Source of the DNA: Bacteroidota bacterium
GTDB taxonomy: Bacteria; Bacteroidota; Bacteroidia; Bacteroidales; Tenuifilaceae
Assembly (NCBI GenBank): GCA_029560875.1
Contig: JAKQKB010000029.1
Coordinates: forward strand, 1 to 47,302
Reading direction: 5' to 3'
DNA: 47,302 nt
Under the pieces are notes generated by a model. It was not told where the DNA came from and ran no database searches. It was given only the letters and a program-made list of their open reading frames with translations. The position numbers were made by a program, and so were the translations under genes. This document shows, in pieces, positions 116 through 36,904 of this stretch (positions within the stretch are counted from its first letter, which is position 1; each line of letters opens with the position of its first letter).

Positions 116-261
116 AATGTTTTGTCGGTTACTAATGATAACTTTTCATTAGTTTTGAAACTCTAATCCTTAAAAAAAGACATATTTGAAACATTTGATT
201 TATATCTCTCCGCTTTTTCCTACTTATTCAGATACTATCATAATAAATCAAAAAAATCTGT

Positions 262-269
262 TAGTTTTG
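262..269 (+). promoter_or_regulatory. -7 element of the BamA-like gene
   Basis: TAGTTTTG is an exact match to TAnnTTTG, 24 bases before the ATG at 294, giving a leader of roughly 18 bases. No clear TTTG is seen at -33. Confidence 0.45.
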
Positions 270-293
270 TTGTGAACCTTAAACTAACTAACA

Positions 294-1637
294 ATGAAAA
301 AATTTTTCATTTTGGTTTCATTATCAATCCTAACCTTTGGATTGCTTGCTCAGGAAGCAGATAACAAAAAAGCCGATAAAGCTAAAACAGGATGGAACGT
401 TGGCGGATTACCTGTGGTTGCTTACGATACCGACTTAGGTTTTGAGTATGGTGCACTAGTAAATTTCTTCAACTACGGCGATGGCTCTATATACCCAAAA
501 TATCGACATAATATTTATGCTGAAGTTTCGCGCTATACTAAAGGGAGCGGAATTAACAGATTATTCTACGATTCAAAATATCTTATTCCTGGCTTACGCA
601 TCACGTCTGACTTGGCCTATCTAACTGACAAAACCTACGATTTCTATGGCTTTAATGGCTATGAATCGGTTTACAATATGGATTGGGCTGATGATGAAAC
701 TGACGATTACCGTAGCCGAGCATTCTACAAATATGACCGAAAGCTAACTCGTTTCACCACCGACCTACAGGGCAAATTGAAAGATGAGAGATTTGGCTGG
801 GTTGCAGGAATTGGTCTTTACAACTTTCAAGTCGATACTGTTGACATTGATAAATTGAACAAGGGAAAATCGTCCGACGAGGAACTCCCCTATGTTCAAG
901 GAGGTCTATATCAACGATATATTGATTGGGGAATAATTGACCCCGATGAAAAAGATGGTGGATTTGCTACCTACCTTAAAGTTGGTGCCGTTTTCGATAC
1001 CCGCGACAATGAACCAAACCCAATGAAAGGAATTTGGACTGAAGCAGTATTGACTTACGCACCATCATTCCTTGGTGTTGGAAAGGAATTTGAGCACGCA
1101 AAACTTTCAATTACGCATCGCCAGTACTTTACTATTGTGCCCGAACGGTTATCGTTTGTGTATCGCTTAGGATATCAAGGAACTCTTTTCGGTACCTGCC
1201 CATTCTACCTTCAACCAAACATGACCACGCTATTTTTGCGTGGAGCAACTAGCGAAGGACTTGGTGGTGCTAAGAATTTGCGTGGAATAATTCGTAACCG
1301 AGTAGTGGGCGATGGCATAGCATACGGTAATATTGAACTCCGCTGGAAATTTGTAAAGTTCTATTTCATCAAGCAAAATTTTTACCTATCGCTAAACACC
1401 TTTGTTGACGGAGGCCAAGTAGTTCAACCAATAAAATTCAATAAAACTTTTGCAGAGGTTGGTTACAATGAGGGCGATTACTTTAGCGACAACAAAGAAA
1501 CCCTTCACGCCAGTTGGGGCGCAGGCTTAAGAATTGTGATGAACCAAAACTTTATAATTGCAGTTGACCACGGTAGAGCATTCAAAAAAGACGATGGAGT
1601 TGCTGGAACCTACATTGGATTAAACTTCTTGTTCTAA
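294..1637 (+). CDS. BamA/TamA-family outer membrane protein (surface antigen barrel)
   Basis: This 447-residue protein has a signal peptide (MKKFFILVSLSILTFGLLAQ, cleavage around residue 19-20). It then reads as alternating beta-strands up to a terminal strand ending in Leu-Asn-Phe-Leu-Phe, the C-terminal aromatic typical of outer-membrane barrels. The region around residues 220-440 (VFDTRDNEPNPMKGIW, LRGIIRNRVVGDG, AYGNIELRWKF) matches the Omp85 C-terminal barrel family, including the arginine-containing loop of BamA-type barrels. It is too short to carry POTRA domains, so it is a barrel-only member and not BamA itself. Substrate is unknown. It has its own promoter and is followed by a strong terminator. 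Confidence 0.8.
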   Translation: MKKFFILVSLSILTFGLLAQEADNKKADKAKTGWNVGGLPVVAYDTDLGFEYGALVNFFNYGDGSIYPKYRHNIYAEVSRYTKGSGINRLFYDSKYLIPGLRITSDLAYLTDKTYDFYGFNGYESVYNMDWADDETDDYRSRAFYKYDRKLTRFTTDLQGKLKDERFGWVAGIGLYNFQVDTVDIDKLNKGKSSDEELPYVQGGLYQRYIDWGIIDPDEKDGGFATYLKVGAVFDTRDNEPNPMKGIWTEAVLTYAPSFLGVGKEFEHAKLSITHRQYFTIVPERLSFVYRLGYQGTLFGTCPFYLQPNMTTLFLRGATSEGLGGAKNLRGIIRNRVVGDGIAYGNIELRWKFVKFYFIKQNFYLSLNTFVDGGQVVQPIKFNKTFAEVGYNEGDYFSDNKETLHASWGAGLRIVMNQNFIIAVDHGRAFKKDDGVAGTYIGLNFLF

Positions 1638-26637: not shown

Positions 26638-26659
26638 AAGGCTGCAAATTTGCAGCCTT
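26638..26659. terminator. bidirectional terminator gyrB / MORN-repeat gene
   Basis: AAGGCTGCAAA directly followed by its reverse complement forms a 22-base perfect palindrome with T-rich sequence downstream on the plus strand, placed between two convergent stop codons. It should terminate both genes. Confidence 0.75.
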
Positions 26660-27816
26660 TATTTTTGTCCTATTACTAGGTCCATTTGCTTGACTAAAGT
26701 TCCTGTTGATTCATATAACCACTTTACGGCAATGGGTGCTCCATTTATATAAAATATTCTGCCAGCAACATCTCCATTGGGATAAAATGTAGTCCAAATC
26801 CCATTATGTTTATCGTTAATGTAAGAACCTATCAACAATAAACTGCCATTTTTATCATAGTAAAACCATCGACCATTGGCTTTCCCTGAAGAATAGTTCC
26901 CTATTTGCTTAAACAGACCATTATCATGATATACAATCCATCTTCCGTCAAAGAGGCCATCCTTAAATCCTCCATTGGAGTAAATTTGACCATTTGGATA
27001 GTAGCTCACCCAATCGCCATTTTTCTTATCCTTTAAGTAACGCCCTCTCTCCATTATCAATCCATTCTCAAAAAAAGAAAAAAATTCGCCCTCCTGAATT
27101 CCATGATTAAAGTTTAAGGTTTCACTTACAGAGCCATTCTCAAAATAGCCAACTAATATTCCATTAATTTCTCCATCAACATAAAAAGCCTTACGTTGAA
27201 GTCTTCCGCTTTTATAATAGGTGTAAAGTGTGTCAATATACTTTCCATTCTTTTTTGTACCAAGATAGTTAAGTTCTCCTGTATCATAATAAGTCTTCCA
27301 AATTCCATTCAGGGTATCATTTCTATACTCAGAAACCAACCTTAAATCACCCGAAGTAGAGTAAACCACAGAAATTCCATTTAACAAACCATTTAAATAA
27401 GAAGATTTAGAATCTATTTGACCATTTGAATGATAAGTAATAAGGGTATCCGTAAGTTTATTATTCTCATACTCCCCAGTTTGATACAACGTGCCATCTG
27501 AGTTCCAAAAGGTAAAACTCCCTTTTTTTTCACCTGACTTGTAGTTAAAAAGACTCTTTCTTGCACTAGAGGAGTAGTATGTAATCCAAACACTATCAGG
27601 CTTACCATTTTTATAAAATCCTTCCTGAAAAACTCTGCCATTGTCAAAATAGAGGATATACCTTCCTTCTCGAATAGAATCAGTTCCAACAATAAAACCT
27701 TGGTATTTCTCTTTTGTTAATCCATTAACGCCAACGCTTTCAACTGAAAAAAAACTCTTCTGCCCCATCAAAATGACGGAGTGCAAAAAAAAGAATATTA
27801 ATACAAAATATTTCAG
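26659..27816 (-). CDS. secreted MORN/YwqK-like repeat protein
   Basis: About 385 residues made of some 14 repeats of roughly 23 residues with the pattern G-x-W-x-x-Y-x-x-N-G (e.g. NGDWVSYYPNGQIYSNG, NGIWTTFYPNGDVAGR). This is the MORN/YwqK-like fold often annotated as a toxin-antitoxin component, although that is unlikely for a secreted protein. The first in-frame ATG (27768) would cut a signal peptide in half. Starting at CTG 27816 gives MKYFVLIFFLHSVILMGQ, a complete signal peptide with cleavage before Gln. So either CTG is used, or an ATG at 27821 has been put out of frame by a small deletion. It lies 11 bases after the chaperone stop and is probably in its operon. Confidence 0.75.
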   Translation of the reverse strand: MKYFVLIFFFLHSVILMGQKSFFSVESVGVNGLTKEKYQGFIVGTDSIREGRYILYFDNGRVFQEGFYKNGKPDSVWITYYSSSARKSLFNYKSGEKKGSFTFWNSDGTLYQTGEYENNKLTDTLITYHSNGQIDSKSSYLNGLLNGISVVYSTSGDLRLVSEYRNDTLNGIWKTYYDTGELNYLGTKKNGKYIDTLYTYYKSGRLQRKAFYVDGEINGILVGYFENGSVSETLNFNHGIQEGEFFSFFENGLIMERGRYLKDKKNGDWVSYYPNGQIYSNGGFKDGLFDGRWIVYHDNGLFKQIGNYSSGKANGRWFYYDKNGSLLLIGSYINDKHNGIWTTFYPNGDVAGRIFYINGAPIAVKWLYESTGTLVKQMDLVIGQK

Positions 27817-27827
27817 CGCATTAAAGA

Positions 27828-28688
27828 TTAATTATGTCTGGTTGTATCGGGAACTGACAATGTACGAGAATCTTTATTAACTACATCAATAACTATTTGA
27901 GCACCTTCCAATGGATATTTCGGGCCATAATCAACAATTGCTGCTAGTGCATACTGTCCAGTTGGTAATTCATTAGGCAAAACCAATTCAATTGCTCTTG
28001 TCATTTTGGGATAAATCTCCAATTCTTGGGGTTTAAATTGTTTTTCTTCCGCTGTAGCAATATTCGAAGCCAAAAGAAAAACTTTAAACTTGGTCACCTT
28101 ATCACCAATATTCTCAATTGTAGCAGAAAACTTTCGGTTGATATCACCAAGTTGAGTTACTTCAGAAAAATTGCTTATTTTCAAACTATGATTAGTATTT
28201 GACTTTGGTGACTGAGATAGAAGCACTCCTATTCGACCAGTAACGGTAACTCCTGCTCCCAAAGTTTTATCGACACTCCATGATGTTTGCTCTGTTGCTG
28301 GCTGAATATATAGCATACACCATGCAGATCCGTAATCCTCGCCAGGAACCAACATTGTTATTTGAATCTGAATATCATCACCTGGATTTACATCAAAAAA
28401 AGAAGGATTAATGTTGACCCAATTTGCGCAGGATCTCTTTGATGAATTTGGAGGCAAAACAACTAACTCACCCTTGCTATTTGGCAAAAAATCAGAAATC
28501 GAAATTACAAAAGATGTTTTTTTATTACTATGGTTTTTAACTGATATGGTTTTTGTTTGATTCATCGATGGCTCCGCATCAAATTCAAGTTTAACAGGTG
28601 CAACTTCAAAATCTTGTCCCTTTAAATCCTGGAAACCAAGAATTAGAGGTATAGTCAAGAGAATTAGTTTAAAGTTATTTATTGTCAT
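27828..28688 (-). CDS. PapD-like periplasmic pilus-assembly chaperone homologue
   Basis: A 286-residue protein from the ATG at 28688 with a signal peptide ending near QDLKGQ. Two Ig-like domains follow. The first begins FEVAPVKLEFDAEPSMN, has the strand pair TISVKNHSNKKTSFVISI, then INPSFFDVNPGDDIQIQI and GSAWCMLYIQP, and a GVTVTGRIGVLL strand. This order (N-terminal edge strand, proline-glycine turn, F1-G1 region, then RIGV) matches fimbrial chaperones of the alternate or archaic chaperone-usher type. The second domain spans about 170-285. It is divergent from a cluster encoding subunit-like and usher-like proteins and upstream of the MORN gene. Assignment rests on sequence pattern and context; DUF916-like cell-surface proteins are the main alternative. 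Confidence 0.65.
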   Translation of the reverse strand: MTINNFKLILLTIPLILGFQDLKGQDFEVAPVKLEFDAEPSMNQTKTISVKNHSNKKTSFVISISDFLPNSKGELVVLPPNSSKRSCANWVNINPSFFDVNPGDDIQIQITMLVPGEDYGSAWCMLYIQPATEQTSWSVDKTLGAGVTVTGRIGVLLSQSPKSNTNHSLKISNFSEVTQLGDINRKFSATIENIGDKVTKFKVFLLASNIATAEEKQFKPQELEIYPKMTRAIELVLPNELPTGQYALAAIVDYGPKYPLEGAQIVIDVVNKDSRTLSVPDTTRHN

Positions 28689-28860
28689 ATTCTTTAAAAT
28701 TGATATGAAGATTCCGTTACGAAAATAAAACAAAAAAAAGTAATACAAAACTTATTCCATAAAATAATTAGTCCAAATTCTTTTTAATATATTTTAAGTT
28801 ATTTTTTTCAATATTAAAAACTTTAACTAAGTTTGAACTAAATAATTAAAAAATTAATAA

Positions 28861-30726
28861 TTGAAAACACAAGTCCAATTATTTATATTTTTTTTGACAT
28901 TAACATTTGCTATAAACAAAAGTTATGCCCAAGAAATATCTGTGCTTCCTTCACAAAAACAGAACGAAGTCGACCGATATAAAGAATTAGTATCCAGATA
29001 TAAACAAGCAGACAATGCACAACAAGCAGCATTTTACCTTAATAAGATTGCTTTTATATATTGGGAAAACGGAAATATTAAGGAAGCAATAAACTACTTT
29101 CAGGAAACCGTACCTTTAAACGAAAAAGTCAGAAATTATAACGATATTAAAGCAGTTTACAGTAATATCGCATTAATTTATGCTGATATTGATAGGCTTG
29201 ATCTTACCCTCGATTACTTTTACAAAGCCTTGGATGTTAGAAAAAAAATGAATAGTAAGTTTGAAGTTGCTGCAGGATTAATTGATGTTGCTTACATCCA
29301 TACAGCTTTAAACCAAACAGAAAAAGCAATTCAACTCCTTAACGAAGCCCACTCATTGTCGCAGGAAATTAACAATCCAAGGTTAATACTAAACTGCCTT
29401 AAACTACTTGCTCAGAATTACGACAAAATGGGTAACACTGCGAAAGCCAACGAATTCACAAGCAAATTCGCCACGTACGAAAAAATGCTTGAAACTCAAA
29501 GTATAAAAACAGAGGCAGAGGTTAAAATTAGCCAATCACAAGCGGAAGCCGAAAGGGAAAAAATGCAACGTGCACAGCAGGAATTGCTGATGAGTCTAAG
29601 AGAATTACAATCCAAAGCAAAGCAAGATTCTCTAACATTTGTTGTAATGACCAAGCAGGATAGTTTAAAAAAAGCAGAAGAGGATGCATTGAACAAGCAA
29701 CGAGAAATTGTAATATTAACCCAGAAAAGAGAGCTTCAAGAAACAAAACTAAGGGAGCAAGAAGCCCAATCGAGAGTACAACAATTAATTATATATTCAG
29801 CCTTTATTTTTCTTGCTGTAGTTTTTGTAGCAACAATTGCAATTTATAAAAACTATAGAGACAAGAAAAAAGCCAATCAACTTTTGAATCTTCAAAATAT
29901 AGAAATTCAAAACCAACGCGACCACATACAAAAGCAAAATGAGAATATAAATAAGAGTATCAACTACGCTCAAGGTATCCAAAAAGCCTTATTGCCACCT
30001 CAAACTAGTTTACAAGAAATATTTGCAGAATCCTTTATATTTTTTAGACCTAGAGATATAGTAAGCGGTGACTACTATTGGTTTAAAGAATTAACAATAG
30101 GCTACGGGCAAGACGAAAAGAATGGAAAGGTTGCTGTTGCAGCAATTGACTGTACAGGACACGGTGTGCCAGGTGCATTCCTTTCGATGATTGGGTATAA
30201 CCTACTCGACGATATAGTTTATAGAGGAATAAACAAACCTGGCGAAATATTAAAAGAATTAAATAATGGTATAAGAAGAACTTTAAGACAGGATGAAACA
30301 GATAACCGCGATGGTATGGATATGGCTCTTTGTGTTGTTGATACCAAAAGTAAAGTGGTTGAGTTTTCTGGTGCAAAAAATCCGCTTGTATATGTTGCGA
30401 ACAACGAGGTTTTCAGAATTAGAGGCGATAAAGAATCAATAGGTGGAGGTATGGGTTATATGGAAAACGATTTCACAACTCACTCCATACAAATTGAGCA
30501 TCCAACATGGTTTTATATGTTCTCCGATGGCTTTATTGATCAGTTTGGAGGTGCAGATGGTAGAAAATATATGATTAAAAATTTTATTGACTTCTTGGCA
30601 AGCATATCAATACTTCCTCCAGATCAACAACGAGAAATGCTTAAAAACACCCTAAAAGATTGGCTAGGAACTAAATACACACAGGTTGATGATATTTTAG
30701 TTCTTGGATTTAAAGTAATGCCTTAA
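28861..30726 (+). CDS. TPR-coiled-coil membrane PP2C-type (SpoIIE) phosphatase
   Basis: A 621-residue protein starting at TTG 28861. No ATG is available before residue 120, and the TTG start gives a complete signal peptide (MKTQVQLFIFFLTLTFAINKSYAQ). Periplasmic TPRs span about 35-200, followed by a coiled coil at 205-305, one membrane helix near 309-330, a short coiled coil and a cytoplasmic SpoIIE/PP2C domain (about 385-620). The metal-binding residues are intact: SGDYYW, AIDCTGHGVPGAF, DGMDMALCVV, MFSDGFIDQFGG and TQVDDILVLGF. Such phosphatases dephosphorylate anti-sigma-antagonist-like or SiaC-like proteins. A SiaC-like gene lies 5.8 kb downstream on the same strand. Its TPR module matches that of the histidine kinase at 13967-15694. 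Confidence 0.88.
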   Translation: MKTQVQLFIFFLTLTFAINKSYAQEISVLPSQKQNEVDRYKELVSRYKQADNAQQAAFYLNKIAFIYWENGNIKEAINYFQETVPLNEKVRNYNDIKAVYSNIALIYADIDRLDLTLDYFYKALDVRKKMNSKFEVAAGLIDVAYIHTALNQTEKAIQLLNEAHSLSQEINNPRLILNCLKLLAQNYDKMGNTAKANEFTSKFATYEKMLETQSIKTEAEVKISQSQAEAEREKMQRAQQELLMSLRELQSKAKQDSLTFVVMTKQDSLKKAEEDALNKQREIVILTQKRELQETKLREQEAQSRVQQLIIYSAFIFLAVVFVATIAIYKNYRDKKKANQLLNLQNIEIQNQRDHIQKQNENINKSINYAQGIQKALLPPQTSLQEIFAESFIFFRPRDIVSGDYYWFKELTIGYGQDEKNGKVAVAAIDCTGHGVPGAFLSMIGYNLLDDIVYRGINKPGEILKELNNGIRRTLRQDETDNRDGMDMALCVVDTKSKVVEFSGAKNPLVYVANNEVFRIRGDKESIGGGMGYMENDFTTHSIQIEHPTWFYMFSDGFIDQFGGADGRKYMIKNFIDFLASISILPPDQQREMLKNTLKDWLGTKYTQVDDILVLGFKVMP

Positions 30727-30823
30727 AACAACTTAATACAACATTAAAACTTATATTTTCGTGTATCCTTAGGAAACTTTCATCAAACAACTATTAATAA
30801 ATTACAAATTCAGCACCAAATAG

Positions 30824-30855
30824 TTGCATTTTCAAATAAAAAAATTTTATATTTA
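30824..30855 (+). promoter_or_regulatory. putative promoter of the first subunit-like gene
   Basis: TTG at 30824-30826 and TATATTTA at 30848-30855 are separated by 21 bases. The -7 differs from TAnnTTTG only in its last base. The predicted start leaves a leader of about 50 bases before the ATG at 30911. Confidence 0.3.
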
Positions 30856-30910
30856 CATTAATTTTCAAAATATAACAGAAAATAATATTAATCAACTAAT
30901 ACACAGAAAA

Positions 30911-31459
30911 ATGAAAAAGGTACTAGCTGGAGCATTATTATTGCTTCTTTCACATTTTGGATATTCACAAACAGTATCGGATCAGGCTGTTGTTCCTGTT
31001 TCAGTTACGTTGAATGCCATTTTGCGTTTAACTGTTACTTCAGGTGGCAATATTGTGTTTGTTGTTAACACTGTAGATCAGTACACAAATGGTATTGCTA
31101 CATCACCTAGGACTACAACAACTTTCAGGGTTTCTTCAACAAGAAACTTCACTGTAACCATGGTTCCTGAAAACAACACTCATTTTGTTGGAATTCAAAC
31201 TAATAACACAACAAACTTTCCTATAACTAATGTTGGAATTGTTTGTGCAGGAACTAGTGGAGTAGTTATACCCGCTGCAGTAGCACCGCTTCTTGCAACT
31301 CAAACAATTGTAACTAGCCCTGCAGCCGCAAATGCATCGTATACCATTGGTTGGGAGTTAGCAACAAATGCTGTTGTAGGTGCAAGCACGTTGCTTTCTC
31401 AAAGCATTCCAGCAGACGTTTATGTTAACAACATGTTCTTAACATTAGCTCCTCAATAG
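30911..31459 (+). CDS. small secreted beta-rich protein, candidate fibre/pilus subunit 1
   Basis: A 182-residue protein from the ATG at 30911, chosen because it gives a clean signal peptide (MKKVLAGALLLLLSHFGYSQ); the upstream in-frame TTG adds no sensible sequence. The mature part, about 162 residues, is rich in Thr, Val and Asn, has a single Cys and is predicted nearly all beta. It starts with alternating hydrophobic residues (VVPVSVTLNAILRLTV) and ends DVYVNNMFLTLAPQ. This resembles DUF4402-like or spore-coat-U-like subunits, but I cannot prove membership. It shares a QYxxG motif block with the next gene. It is followed by a strong hairpin, as expected for a highly expressed subunit upstream of an assembly gene. 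Confidence 0.6.
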   Translation: MKKVLAGALLLLLSHFGYSQTVSDQAVVPVSVTLNAILRLTVTSGGNIVFVVNTVDQYTNGIATSPRTTTTFRVSSTRNFTVTMVPENNTHFVGIQTNNTTNFPITNVGIVCAGTSGVVIPAAVAPLLATQTIVTSPAAANASYTIGWELATNAVVGASTLLSQSIPADVYVNNMFLTLAPQ

Positions 31460-31480
31460 GGATAAAGCATGATTAATAAG

Positions 31481-31512
31481 TAGAGCCAAACGATTTAATC
31501 CGTTTGGCTCTA
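31481..31512 (+). terminator. 12-bp hairpin between the two subunit-like genes
   Basis: TAGAGCCAAACG (31481-31492) and CGTTTGGCTCTA (31501-31512) form a perfect 12-bp stem with an 8-base loop. No strong T-run follows, so it may be a partial terminator or an mRNA-stabilising 3' end for the first subunit transcript. Confidence 0.7.
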
Positions 31513-31536
31513 TTAATTAGATTTACAAATAAAAGA

Positions 31537-32073
31537 ATGAAACACGTTACAAAATTCTTCTTTCTATTTTTATTATCATTATACATTTTTACCACATCGA
31601 CAGCTCACGCTCAAACAGGAACAGTGAGAGTAAATGGTGGTGGAGTTCAGTTTTTTTTTACAGCATACAATCAATATTCTTCGGGGGTAACCCTCACTAA
31701 CAGAAACATAGTTAAAATTAATTATACCTTTGCGACGCCACCGTTAAATTGGCAACTTAGAGTAAAGTCGGATTACCCCTCAATTATGTCGGCCAATGGA
31801 AGCACTCCAGATATTGCAAACCTAACATATTTAAAAGTAAATGTGGAGGGCACTCCTACGATTACGCCTGCGGGCAACACAACAGTAATTATAAACGGTG
31901 CTTTTTACGTTGACCACCTAACACCTCAAGTCCTTGTTTCAGGAACAGGTAATGGTAATTTCGAAGTTAATATGAGCATATCTTACTCCTTTGGCTTTCC
32001 TCCTCCTTCGCTTATAAACATCCCCTGGGGTTTGTATTATACAAACTTGACTTTTATCTTAGAGTATTTTTAA
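31537..32073 (+). CDS. small secreted beta-rich protein, candidate fibre/pilus subunit 2
   Basis: A 178-residue protein from the ATG at 31537, giving the signal peptide MKHVTKFFFLFLLSLYIFT...AHAQ. The mature part, about 153 residues, is Asn/Thr/Tyr-rich, lacks Cys and is predicted all beta. Near its start, FFFTAYNQYSSGVTLTNR parallels FVVNTVDQYTNGIATSPR of the previous protein. Both proteins have an Asn-Phe/Trp strand (NFTVTM, NWQLRV) at matching distance and similar C-termini (IPADVYVNNMFLTL, IPWGLYYTNLTFIL). The two are diverged paralogues. A minor, adaptor or tip subunit is one possible role. It lies 44 bases upstream of the usher-like gene. Confidence 0.6.
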   Translation: MKHVTKFFFLFLLSLYIFTTSTAHAQTGTVRVNGGGVQFFFTAYNQYSSGVTLTNRNIVKINYTFATPPLNWQLRVKSDYPSIMSANGSTPDIANLTYLKVNVEGTPTITPAGNTTVIINGAFYVDHLTPQVLVSGTGNGNFEVNMSISYSFGFPPPSLINIPWGLYYTNLTFILEYF

Positions 32074-32117
32074 ACTGAAAAGATTATTATCTTTACTGAA
32101 ACATGAGAATTAAATAA

Positions 32118-35100
32118 ATGACAACCGTAGTAAAATATTTTCTCTCCTTTTTATTTCTTTTGTGGAGTTGCCATTTATCCTTTGCTCAGTATTATATTCA
32201 ACAAACTCAACCCAACATTGAGGCAAAATTTACACGTCACTCGCTTGAAGCTAAAGCAAAGCAAACTTTTTTTAATGTTTTAAAAATTAAAAACAACTCT
32301 AACCGACCTGAGAATTTTATTTTAAATATTACCGTACCTCAGGGTTGGAATGTAATTGGAAAAGACAAATTTGAAATTAACATAAATCCACTCGATTCAA
32401 TTATTGTACCATTAAGAATAGCAATAGCTGGGAATGTTAGAGGAGATATTGGCTATAGCGTTATTGCATCTATTTCCGATACTAGAGGTAATACCATCAA
32501 GAATGAGTATTGCTTTGTAAAAATACCAAGAGAAACTGACCTAGTAGTAAAATTCTCTAATAGAATTTTTTATCTCGACCCAATTTCAAATACAACTGAA
32601 TTTAGTGTGCAAGTAAGCAATAAGGGAAACAGAGAAGAATTAGTGAATTTTATTTTTGATGGGAATCGTTTACTCAGCGTGAATTCGGAAAAAACAAATT
32701 TATTTGCTAAAGATATAATAGTCCCACCGTTTACAGATACATCGCTTACATTTGATGCCAGATTACTTTTTGTTGAACACCAAGGTAAAGAGATGTTCAG
32801 TCTTGCCACAAAAATTACAACAATAGATACTGTTTACAATAATACATTGTGGTTCAAATTATTGAAATCAGAATTTAAGAATAACGTCCCCTCTTCCGAA
32901 AAACCTTTAAGAATGGAATTTTATGCACAAGGACTATTGGATGCATATATATCCCCTACTTACTCTTTACTACTAGAGGGTAAAACTCTTTTCAAAGGAA
33001 ACTCTGATATTTACTATTATTACAGAAATTTTGCTTCGCAAAAAAATGAAGACTTATACAAGTATAATAGAATGTATATCGGAAGCCATATCGGTTCATG
33101 GACACTCGAAGTTGGTGATAGTTATCGCTCTATTGAAAGTCAAATGTCGGGTAGAGGTGGATATATAGCCTACGAAAATAATAGAGTAAAAGCAGAAGCC
33201 ATAGTAAACTCAAATGAATTAACTGATTTTGAGAATATTGGAGGAACCCTTAAGGTTAACCTAAATAAAAAAACCTTTCTCTATACAGGAACAGCCCTCA
33301 GCGAAAATAAAAGCAGCAACTTTTCTTCCAAACTTGGTTTACTAGGTGCGGGGTTTTCTTTAAATCGACGACACAACTTCTACCTTCAAGGTTCTTTAAA
33401 TCAGATAACAAGGGGGGAAACACCAGCAATAAACAATGAATATGGATGGGAATTTAACTACAATTCAAACTACAAAAAAATTTCTTCAATAGTTAGGGCA
33501 AAATATGGTAGCGAACAATACTATAGTCCATACGGAGGCAGATTAGAATTGTTTAGTATTATTACATGGCAAAAAAATCCTACAAATCAATTTCAATTAT
33601 ACTTTTCAGAAAACCATAATAATGTTTCAAGAATTGATATTGATGAATACTTAAAACTAGGCTATTTAAAATCAAGAGAGGGAAAACTACTTTTCAGACA
33701 CTTAGTTAACAGTGATGTAGAAGTATTTGCAGGGCCTGTTCTTTTAAACTATAAATCATCAGATATATATAATTTCCCTGTAGATCAATATTTCTCAAGC
33801 CTGAATTCTAAAGCAACTTTAGGTGCTAGGATTAAAAATTCCTCGGGTACCGCCGTATTAATGCCATCAATCGAGGTTGCTTGGGCAAATGTTACAAACA
33901 ACCCATTCATAAACACTGACAGTTTAAGTAAAAACCGAAAATCGTTTGGATACTACAATCTTGCAGTAACATTTAGGAGCAGGTCATTTCTTATTCTCGC
34001 CTTTTTTAATTCAGGACCCAGATCGTTATATGACCAAGTTAACTACCTCCAAAACAGTAAGCAGAGTAGGAAGTTACAATTTATTCCAACCTTTGATAGA
34101 TTTGTATACAAGGATATAGTTAAGGTTCAAGTAGGATTAAACTACACCAATGATATGATGATCAAATCTAGGTATACAAATATTATTGGACAAGTAAACT
34201 GGTATTTGCCGAGAGACTGGGAATTTCAAGCCCTAGGGGTCTATTCCTTACAACACAGAATGAACTATCAGGATCTTCTTGAAACCTACCAAAACTTATA
34301 TCTAGAGTTAGGGATAAAAAAAGACTTTAACATTAATCAACCAAGAGTCAGATACCACGATATTGAGTTAAGTTTTTTCAAAGATTTCAATGGCAATTAC
34401 TTGAAAGACGAAAATGAGCCTGGAGTGAAAAACGTACTTGTAAGTATGGAGAAGACTAGCAGTGAGGCTGTTGGGAGAATTCCTGGGGACTTCTATGGTG
34501 GTGAGTTAATCTCCGATAATACTGGAAATGTTTCTTTCGAAGATATACCTGAAGGAATCTATAAAATTAGCTATAACCCCGTTGGAAGTGACTTAGGCAG
34601 TTATAGTAAAGCCAAAGATGACATTGAACTTAGAGTGAATCGATCGGGGAAATATTTTTTCCCATTTGTTGAGAAAAATAAAGTTTTTGGGAAAATTGTA
34701 CTTAATCGTAGCCGACTATCCGGTTTAGGTAAAGTCGATATCTCTAACATTAGAATTACGGCAACTGATAGTAGAGGTAATACATTCTCCACATTAACCG
34801 ACAAAGAGGGAGGATTTATAATTTACGCACCTGTAACCGACGAATACATTGTCAACATCAACAATATCTTTTACGAAGACTTTGACTTAAGACAAAACAA
34901 TTTCAGGGTTCAGTTTAATGGATACAAGCAGTTTGAAGTTAATTTTGTTTTCGATGAAAAAATTAGAAGGATTAACTTTAGCCCATCAACTCAGGATAAT
35001 CTGGCCGAAGGGGTACTACAAATTCGTAGAACCAATTTACGCGGTACTATTAAAGATGCAACAACACTTAACCCGTTAAGAGCAAGAATTAACTTGGTTA

Positions 35101-35639
35101 ATACAAAAAACAACTCTATTGTTTCTTCAGTTTATTCTAACCCTCAAACTGGCGACTATAGCCTTTCATTCTTAGCTGACGATATATATCTATTGGAAAT
35201 TGTTGCAGATGATTATTGGTACTTCTCCGAGAACTTAAACTTAAACCAAGTAACAACTTTCATGAATGTTACAAGGGATATTTTGTTGAAGCAAATATCT
35301 ATTGGATCAAAAATGGAACTAAACATAAAATTTGTTGAGATCAACCAATCAACATTGGGCCCTGAAACAGTTGCGGAACTTAATAGATTGCTTCACATTT
35401 TAAAGGATAATAGCAATATTAAGGTTGAGATACAAGGTCACTGTGATGACTTAGAAGCTATCAACAATCCACAAATTGGTGAAGAGCGAGCAAAATCAGT
35501 TGCTAAATACCTTGTTGAAAATGGCTTCAGCAATTTACAGGTAAGAGGCTTTGGGAATACCTCTCCTATCGCTCCTAGCGATTCAGAAGAAAATAGAACA
35601 TTGAATAGAAGGGTTGAGATTGAAGTTATAAGTAAATAA
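32118..35639 (+). CDS. usher-like outer membrane protein with SdrD-B-like, carboxypeptidase-regulatory-like and OmpA domains
   Basis: A 1173-residue protein with a signal peptide ending SFAQ. Order of parts: two Ig-like segments, about 25-240 (NRPENFILNITVPQGWNVIG); a long region of amphipathic strands, about 260-750, that reads as a large outer-membrane barrel (WTLEVGDSYRSIESQMSGRGG, NLYLELGIKKDF); an SdrD-B-like domain near 760-850 (DFNGNYLKDENEPGVKNVLV); carboxypeptidase-regulatory-like Ig domains, about 860-1055; and an OmpA C-terminal domain, about 1070-1173, with IEVQGH-like IEIQGHCDD spacing and NRRVEIEV. The barrel-plus-Ig layout and the neighbouring chaperone and subunit genes suggest an usher or secretion pore that the OmpA domain tethers to peptidoglycan. 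No match to classical FimD/PapC signatures was recognised, so the role is inferred. Confidence 0.6.
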   Translation: MTTVVKYFLSFLFLLWSCHLSFAQYYIQQTQPNIEAKFTRHSLEAKAKQTFFNVLKIKNNSNRPENFILNITVPQGWNVIGKDKFEININPLDSIIVPLRIAIAGNVRGDIGYSVIASISDTRGNTIKNEYCFVKIPRETDLVVKFSNRIFYLDPISNTTEFSVQVSNKGNREELVNFIFDGNRLLSVNSEKTNLFAKDIIVPPFTDTSLTFDARLLFVEHQGKEMFSLATKITTIDTVYNNTLWFKLLKSEFKNNVPSSEKPLRMEFYAQGLLDAYISPTYSLLLEGKTLFKGNSDIYYYYRNFASQKNEDLYKYNRMYIGSHIGSWTLEVGDSYRSIESQMSGRGGYIAYENNRVKAEAIVNSNELTDFENIGGTLKVNLNKKTFLYTGTALSENKSSNFSSKLGLLGAGFSLNRRHNFYLQGSLNQITRGETPAINNEYGWEFNYNSNYKKISSIVRAKYGSEQYYSPYGGRLELFSIITWQKNPTNQFQLYFSENHNNVSRIDIDEYLKLGYLKSREGKLLFRHLVNSDVEVFAGPVLLNYKSSDIYNFPVDQYFSSLNSKATLGARIKNSSGTAVLMPSIEVAWANVTNNPFINTDSLSKNRKSFGYYNLAVTFRSRSFLILAFFNSGPRSLYDQVNYLQNSKQSRKLQFIPTFDRFVYKDIVKVQVGLNYTNDMMIKSRYTNIIGQVNWYLPRDWEFQALGVYSLQHRMNYQDLLETYQNLYLELGIKKDFNINQPRVRYHDIELSFFKDFNGNYLKDENEPGVKNVLVSMEKTSSEAVGRIPGDFYGGELISDNTGNVSFEDIPEGIYKISYNPVGSDLGSYSKAKDDIELRVNRSGKYFFPFVEKNKVFGKIVLNRSRLSGLGKVDISNIRITATDSRGNTFSTLTDKEGGFIIYAPVTDEYIVNINNIFYEDFDLRQNNFRVQFNGYKQFEVNFVFDEKIRRINFSPSTQDNLAEGVLQIRRTNLRGTIKDATTLNPLRARINLVNTKNNSIVSSVYSNPQTGDYSLSFLADDIYLLEIVADDYWYFSENLNLNQVTTFMNVTRDILLKQISIGSKMELNIKFVEINQSTLGPETVAELNRLLHILKDNSNIKVEIQGHCDDLEAINNPQIGEERAKSVAKYLVENGFSNLQVRGFGNTSPIAPSDSEENRTLNRRVEIEVISK

Positions 35640-36529: not shown

Positions 36530-36904
36530 ATGAAGCCGTTGAGATTTGATGAAACATCTGATACTCCAGAGGTTAATTTGGATAAAGATAGAGGGAGGTT
36601 TGAGTTTTATGGGAAATCGATGCCCGAGGATCCAAATGAGTTTTTCATGCCAATAATCGAATGGTTTAAAACTTACGTAGGTAATCCTAACAAAGAGACA
36701 GTGCTCATCTTTAAAATGGATTATTTTAACACTGCTTCATCTAAGAAAATTCTCGAAATACTATCGCTTCTTCTGGAAATTCACAAGAAAAAAATGTCAG
36801 TAATTGTGAATTGGCATTACCGAAGCAACGACGATGATATGAAGGAAACCGGAGAAACCTTTTCAGAAATCGTACATATTCCTTTCAGGATTACTCCATA
36901 CTAA
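36530..36904 (+). CDS. SiaC-like (DUF1987) regulatory phosphoprotein
   Basis: A 124-residue cytoplasmic protein of the SiaC/DUF1987 family: TSDTPEVNLDKDRGRFEFYGKS at the start, PNEFFMPIIEWFKTYV in the middle, and the conserved MDYFNTASSKKILEIL. Thr68 in YFNTASSK coincides in motif and number with the Thr phosphorylated in Pseudomonas SiaC, which is dephosphorylated by the PP2C protein SiaA and controls the diguanylate cyclase SiaD. No SiaB-type kinase or GGDEF gene is in the window, but a SpoIIE-type phosphatase is encoded at 28861-30726. It has its own promoter and terminator. Confidence 0.85.
   Translation: MKPLRFDETSDTPEVNLDKDRGRFEFYGKSMPEDPNEFFMPIIEWFKTYVGNPNKETVLIFKMDYFNTASSKKILEILSLLLEIHKKKMSVIVNWHYRSNDDDMKETGETFSEIVHIPFRITPY

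Follow-up and report, generated by a model that had tools for sequence, protein, structure and literature searches.

A divergent chaperone-usher-like gene module of class Bacteroidia whose predicted fibre subunit belongs to the TLP-1 family

A compact gene cluster in a Bacteroidota genome (assembly GCA_029560875.1, Tenuifilaceae) probably encodes a divergent chaperone-usher pathway that builds a thin surface fibre out of a small secreted protein, here called SM1. The cluster lies at positions 27,828 to 35,639 of contig JAKQKB010000029.1, of which a stretch of 47,302 nucleotides was analysed (the window). It encodes a secreted, chaperone-like protein with two immunoglobulin (Ig)-like domains (CHAP, 286 amino acids (aa), 27828..28688, minus strand) and, divergently on the plus strand, SM1 (182 aa, 30911..31459), a predicted polymerising pilin-like subunit; SM2 (178 aa, 31537..32073), an SM1-related predicted tip subunit without the N-terminal extension; and BIG (1173 aa, 32118..35639), a predicted usher-like outer-membrane protein. 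A preliminary description made from the DNA alone had reported all four proteins as one divergent cluster, and each was found where it had been placed. The likely start of CHAP is the ATG at 28688, a 306-aa reading frame beginning at a TTG further out, and the database copy (P0001) likewise has 286 aa; SM1 (database copy P0203, 182 aa), SM2 and BIG start with ATG at 30911, 31537 and 32118, respectively.

Chaperone homology, the fold of the subunit, gene co-occurrence and a homologous assembly of solved structure all support the divergent chaperone-usher reading. The preliminary description had called the system "independent or very divergent"; the second term holds, and independent origin is unlikely for CHAP because homology links it to pilus chaperones by way of the DUF4402-locus chaperones, as described below. 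It had started from the premise that the pili usually described for Bacteroidota are of type V (FimA/Mfa). The Bacteroidota host would suit a type V locus, but we give this explanation almost no credence, since CHAP, SM1, SM2 and BIG have no FimA/Mfa match among the listed Pfam and NCBIfam hits (for BIG, the top 25 of its 33 NCBIfam rows), SM1 has no lipobox as judged by eye, and type V loci are not known to include a chaperone or a barrel protein. More generally, the scanned members of the CHAP, SM and BIG families passed no Pfam or NCBIfam pilus-family cut-off.

The CHAP family was connected to known pilus chaperones through loci of another kind. Of 198 genomes sampled from the GTDB phylum Bacteroidota, 30 had a DUF4402 (PF14352) match, and 16 loci (L088-L103, with L092 and L093 inside class Bacteroidia) encode DUF4402-type subunits, PapD-like chaperones and, in most, a usher-like protein of 750-1533 aa. 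For hhalign, 17 chaperones and 15 ushers of DUF4402 loci were chosen by visual inspection of where their genes lie and how the sequences begin. Stripped of signal peptides, the CHAP family of the whole class aligned with these chaperones over both domains (99.0%, E 4.9e-18), against 0.2% for a reversed-alignment control; over all runs the range was 97.8-99.5%. Against seven pilus chaperones of E. coli K-12, the DUF4402-locus chaperones as a family scored 68-92%, and one of the five scanned passed the PapD_N (PF00345) cut-off. Compared directly, CHAP did not reach the E. coli K-12 set (1.3-4.4% local, up to 25.7% global); its Pfam scan gave sub-threshold Ig families only, with no direct PF00345 match, and the CHAP of one distant locus (L154) had a weak, far sub-threshold match to an NCBIfam fimbrial chaperone model (E 0.0015). 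By profile comparison, then, CHAP is homologous to pilus chaperones by way of the DUF4402-locus bridge, which places it among the PapD-superfamily chaperones.

Residues P37, N58, D72, P121, N199, G201, P233, P244 and D259 (numbering of window:27831-28706) are invariant in 20 class-wide CHAP sequences. An arginine on strand F1 is characteristic of archaic and alternative chaperones according to PMC4654587. No counterpart was seen by eye at the aligned place in CHAP, and the archaic and alternative pili (CsuC-CsuA/B, CfaE, Ecp) have no sequence homology to the cluster. In the second CHAP domain, the invariant D259 and the almost invariant Y252 could form a different anchor. A proline aligned by eye with the invariant proline of the superfamily was invariant in 30 close homologues but missing in L158-L160, and was dropped as evidence. 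Similarity between CHAP and the N-terminus of BIG (73% global with signal peptides) fell to 26% local once the BIG signal peptide was trimmed and was not used.

Homology to DUF4402-locus chaperones, together with the occurrence of DUF4402 clusters in other GTDB Bacteroidota, might make the cluster an ordinary member of the archaic (DUF4402/spore-coat-U) chaperone-usher group. This is very unlikely and is contradicted at the sequence level: the window genome has no DUF4402 match, BIG has no match to the usher family PF00577, and SM1 and SM2, which match no Pfam or NCBIfam family, show no similarity to the DUF4402 profile without signal peptides. An apparent SM1-DUF4402 similarity of 89% was dropped as a signal-peptide artefact because it collapsed to 0.6% when signal peptides were removed. 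DUF4402 loci share with the cluster a chaperone homologous over both domains and a usher-like C-terminal region homologous to that of BIG, in the same place after the barrel, but their subunits are unrelated by sequence and their barrel is not detectably homologous to that of BIG. Of five scanned large proteins from these loci, none matched Pfam Usher and none carried the OmpA domain found in BIG, and three had SPOR matches (two over the cut-off).

Direct searches of the PDB with CHAP gave no match; the first came with the class-wide profile (A6), whose closest solved relative is the Enterococcus WxL-interacting protein EfmWxLIP1 (9i25/9i1y, E 1.2e-5, both domains), ahead of any pilus chaperone in the PDB. 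Since this match to WxLIP spans both domains, it suggests that WxLIP and pilus chaperones share ancestry. It also favours a reading in which the cluster is a diderm counterpart of Gram-positive WxL/WxLIP systems: CHAP would be a permanent partner of SM1 and SM2, at the cell surface or on peptidoglycan, and no fibre would form. In WxL clusters, too, a single protein with two Ig domains accompanies two small proteins, and strand insertion is predicted (PMC10599100); the abstract of that paper does not list the BIG family as a member of these clusters. We consider this reading quite unlikely, as a Pfam scan gave no WxL match for either SM1 or SM2, and the host is diderm, with BIG and a subunit of the TLP-1 family instead, TLP-1 itself having been solved as a 16-chain assembly.

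The TLP-1 link gives the predicted fibre a structural counterpart. TLP-1a and TLP-1b (PDB 9ikj and 9ikk), which we take to be the pond-water fibrils of the CryoSeek paper, are cryo-EM structures of this assembly, and no statement of TLP-1 origin or assembly route was found in the literature open to search. SM1 homologues occupying the same gene position in CHAP-SM1-SM2-BIG clusters match TLP-1 over most of the chain (E 1e-40 to 1e-60, up to 50% identity). SM1 of the window is a shorter, distant member: the profile of its own lineage (A4) alone gave E 0.57, and it was joined to TLP-1 through the family profile (A7, E 1.2e-27). By homology over most of the chain, SM1 can be assigned to the TLP-1 family, and the TLP-1 assembly is likely to have been built by clusters of the CHAP-SM1-SM2-BIG type.

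An AlphaFold2 model of SM1 (49 sequences, pLDDT 89.7) predicts an Ig-like sandwich in which the chain is closed by its last strand (residues 175-181 of 182) and residues 18-37 have no secondary structure. Few parts of SM1 are as conserved as this N-terminal segment (P29, N35 and R39 invariant; V30, S31, V32, T33 and L34 nearly so); residues 21-35 (30971..31015, plus strand), with the conserved motif V/I-P-V-S-V-T-L-N, are the predicted donor segment. SM1 and SM2 are homologous (hhalign 98.7-99.6% without signal peptides). From the predicted cleavage site to a shared GG motif, SM1 proteins have 23-29 residues and SM2 proteins 8-13, as scored in 23 of 26 and 16 of 27 proteins; the other 3 and 11 yielded no motif or cleavage site to the patterns used. 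On the model, SM1 has the features of a pilin, an Ig fold without strand G and a putative N-terminal donor extension. Because one protein has the putative donor segment and the other is without it, the pair resembles in layout a donor-strand pilin with its tip subunit, as the body and tip of a fibre need. In L158, L159 and L155 the best SM match was at the C-terminus of larger proteins, preceded by another domain as in FimH or CfaE. L158 and L159 (genomes G071 and G154) carry a distant version of the cluster in one run, consisting of a small subunit, a chaperone, a two-domain protein of 343-345 aa and a 932-aa BIG relative, an arrangement resembling the classical pilin-chaperone-adhesin-usher set.

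The 1173-residue protein had been described as having Ig-like, barrel-like and OmpA parts, and domain matches and a structural model agree with this. In Pfam, OmpA and CarboxypepD_reg exceeded the cut-off, which SdrD_B narrowly missed. The model has two Ig-like domains (residues 30-255, 32205..32882), a predicted beta-barrel (residues 259-745, 32892..34352) with 26 strand segments by DSSP between residues 264 and 737, and C-terminal beta-sandwich domains (residues 746-945, 34353..34952) that align with usher C-terminal domains (CTDs) by structure and hhalign; the OmpA-family peptidoglycan-binding domain follows (residues 1076-1164, 35343..35609, all on the plus strand). Ushers (PF00577) are outer-membrane proteins with a 24-strand barrel, a plug, an N-terminal domain (NTD), CTD1 and CTD2. 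The best Foldseek match of the BIG barrel was FimD, and barrel and sandwiches together aligned with PapC/FimD through the C-terminal domains (VIA 261..945 against PapC 145..805). Like FimD and PapC, the BIG model combines a large barrel with beta-sandwich domains C-terminal to it. Unlike them, it has two Ig-like domains in place of the NTD, 26 strand segments and an additional OmpA domain.

Three results weigh against a usher role for BIG and hence against the chaperone-usher reading: the Pfam scan gave no PF00577 match, neither the plug nor the NTD of ushers was recognised, and hhalign by domain detected no sequence homology between the BIG barrel and the DUF4402-locus ushers. Whole BIG scored 98-99% against the profile of these ushers, but the split by domain traced the score to the C-terminal sandwiches (97.5% between the two CTD regions) rather than to the barrel. 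The CTD similarity supports usher ancestry and falls short of proving it, because SdrD_B/CarboxypepD_reg-like domains are widespread. The idea put forward in the preliminary description withstood most of the tests applied to it. A usher role is proposed for BIG from its predicted fold, domain order and gene position. SM1 might instead form fibres by donor strands with BIG as some other outer-membrane barrel, or leave by a different export route and self-assemble outside in the manner of TasA. We judge this unlikely given the collinearity of SM1, SM2 and BIG, the structural alignment with PapC/FimD up to their C-terminal domains, the CTD homology to DUF4402-locus ushers, and the presence of CHAP in most genomes that carry BIG (25 of 28 among the relatives, 36 of 40 across the class).

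The OmpA domain is missing from some divergent relatives of BIG; among the matches listed, those in G051 and G033 stop near residue 958, in frames of 981 and 996 aa. In G002, BIG (L047 6056-10581) is interrupted by another open reading frame, and BIG of G018 (L057 15340-18899) and CHAP of G423 (L156 4820-5739) are each split into two frames.

Searches at E<=1e-3 found 273 homologues of CHAP, of which 120 were listed, and 82 for the BIG stretch of residues 20-760; together with the gene order kept over 47 loci, this goes beyond chance. The named relatives of the window genome are Bacteroidales, including Perlabentimonas gracilis and Tenuifilaceae/Tenuifilum records. Among 60 genomes (the window genome and its relatives), BIG beyond its OmpA part was found in 28, among the matches listed, and CHAP in 28; 25 had both and 29 neither. 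The three genomes with BIG only are 63-78% complete, and the three with CHAP only 93, 92 and 77%. CHAP lies about 14.5-17.4 kb away from BIG in three genomes of one genus (g6; G007, G013, G017).

The same association was seen across the class. Of 295 sampled class Bacteroidia genomes, 40 had a match to BIG, 48 to CHAP and 43 to SM1. Both CHAP and SM1 were found in 42 genomes and neither in 246; BIG and CHAP occurred together in 36, alone in 4 (BIG) and 12 (CHAP), and neither in 243; 34 genomes had BIG, CHAP and SM1. These searches scored the best 2 (BIG), 8 (CHAP) and 10 (SM1) candidates per genome, so misses occur, and Fisher values for co-occurrence carry no correction for relatedness. When five genomes with CHAP and SM1 but an apparent lack of BIG were re-read (G261, G292, G338, G352, G486), all five carried BIG beside SM genes; G127, G341, G386, G445 and G453 were left out of the re-reading. 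The BIG-only genomes comprise three with short, weak matches only (G123, G143, G295) and one that is 60% complete (G429).

In 47 loci, fetched on the grounds of holding BIG, SM1-SM2-BIG was collinear in 39 and CHAP stood in the same stretch in 33, several others stopping at a contig edge. The HMMs were partly built from the same loci, two of the loci (L004 and L054) come from one genome, and the family alignments dropped BIG pieces below 900 aa and CHAP pieces below 230 aa. Co-occurrence of the genes, which the preliminary description had proposed as a check, is borne out within class Bacteroidia: chaperone, subunit and usher-like genes are clustered, and the module is conserved across the class. 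Distant families (L151, L153, L154, L156, L157) keep CHAP-SM1-SM2-BIG on one strand without the phosphatase and MORN genes between them, and these four genes therefore look like the core of the module; in L155, a larger two-domain protein takes the place of SM2 in the one-strand order.

In the window, the order is a MORN-repeat gene and CHAP on the minus strand, then a TPR-SpoIIE phosphatase gene, SM1, SM2, BIG and dapF on the plus strand. The MORN-repeat protein (MORN_2, Pfam match; 26659..27786, minus strand) is encoded 42 bases downstream of CHAP and does not figure in the preliminary description; a MORN_2-repeat gene adjoins the CHAP gene in many loci. Within the cluster lies a gene for a TPR protein with a SpoIIE/PP2C phosphatase domain (28861..30726, plus strand), on which the preliminary description had not remarked. 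It is SiaA-like (NCBIfam E 5.9e-51, under the family cut-off), and the gene is missing from several divergent loci. Just downstream of dapF, a SiaC-family phosphoprotein is encoded at 36530-36904 (PF09345, 133.6 bits). The SiaA/SiaC pair of Pseudomonas acts in biofilm control, and by analogy the phosphatase and the SiaC-family protein are a possible partner-switch controlling the fibre. Such a pair fits a regulated adhesive fibre, yet is no evidence for one.

In the proposed chaperone-usher mechanism, SM1 and SM2, once secreted into the periplasm, would be held there by CHAP, which would supply a strand to their open Ig-like fold (donor-strand complementation). The BIG barrel, anchored to peptidoglycan through the OmpA domain at its tail, would serve as assembly and exit pore in the outer membrane. 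SM2, having no N-terminal donor segment, would exit first and take the tip position, and SM1 would polymerise by donor-strand exchange, the N-terminal segment (about residues 21-35) of each subunit entering the groove of the preceding one. The phosphatase may control the system, and the cells carrying it would be piliated.

We found no paper on a chaperone-usher system of the CHAP/SM1/SM2/BIG kind in Bacteroidota, in a search that had most subscription literature outside its coverage and so does not show absence from print; one survey (PMC4793230) omits chaperone-usher systems. If the chaperone-usher reading is true, Bacteroidota would possess a second, widespread type of pilus whose chaperone, subunits and exit protein each come from a family of their own. 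It is reasonably probable that these loci form a separate Bacteroidota branch of chaperone-usher systems, with peptidoglycan-anchored ushers that lack the usual NTD and plug, and that this branch makes TLP-1-type fibres and supplies the gene cluster and assembly machine for those cryo-EM fibres. The CHAP family, falling between pilus chaperones and Gram-positive WxLIP, bears on the origin of strand-lending chaperones. The solved TLP-1 assembly would become a genetic system, as its homologues sit in clusters with what tests of fibre assembly need.
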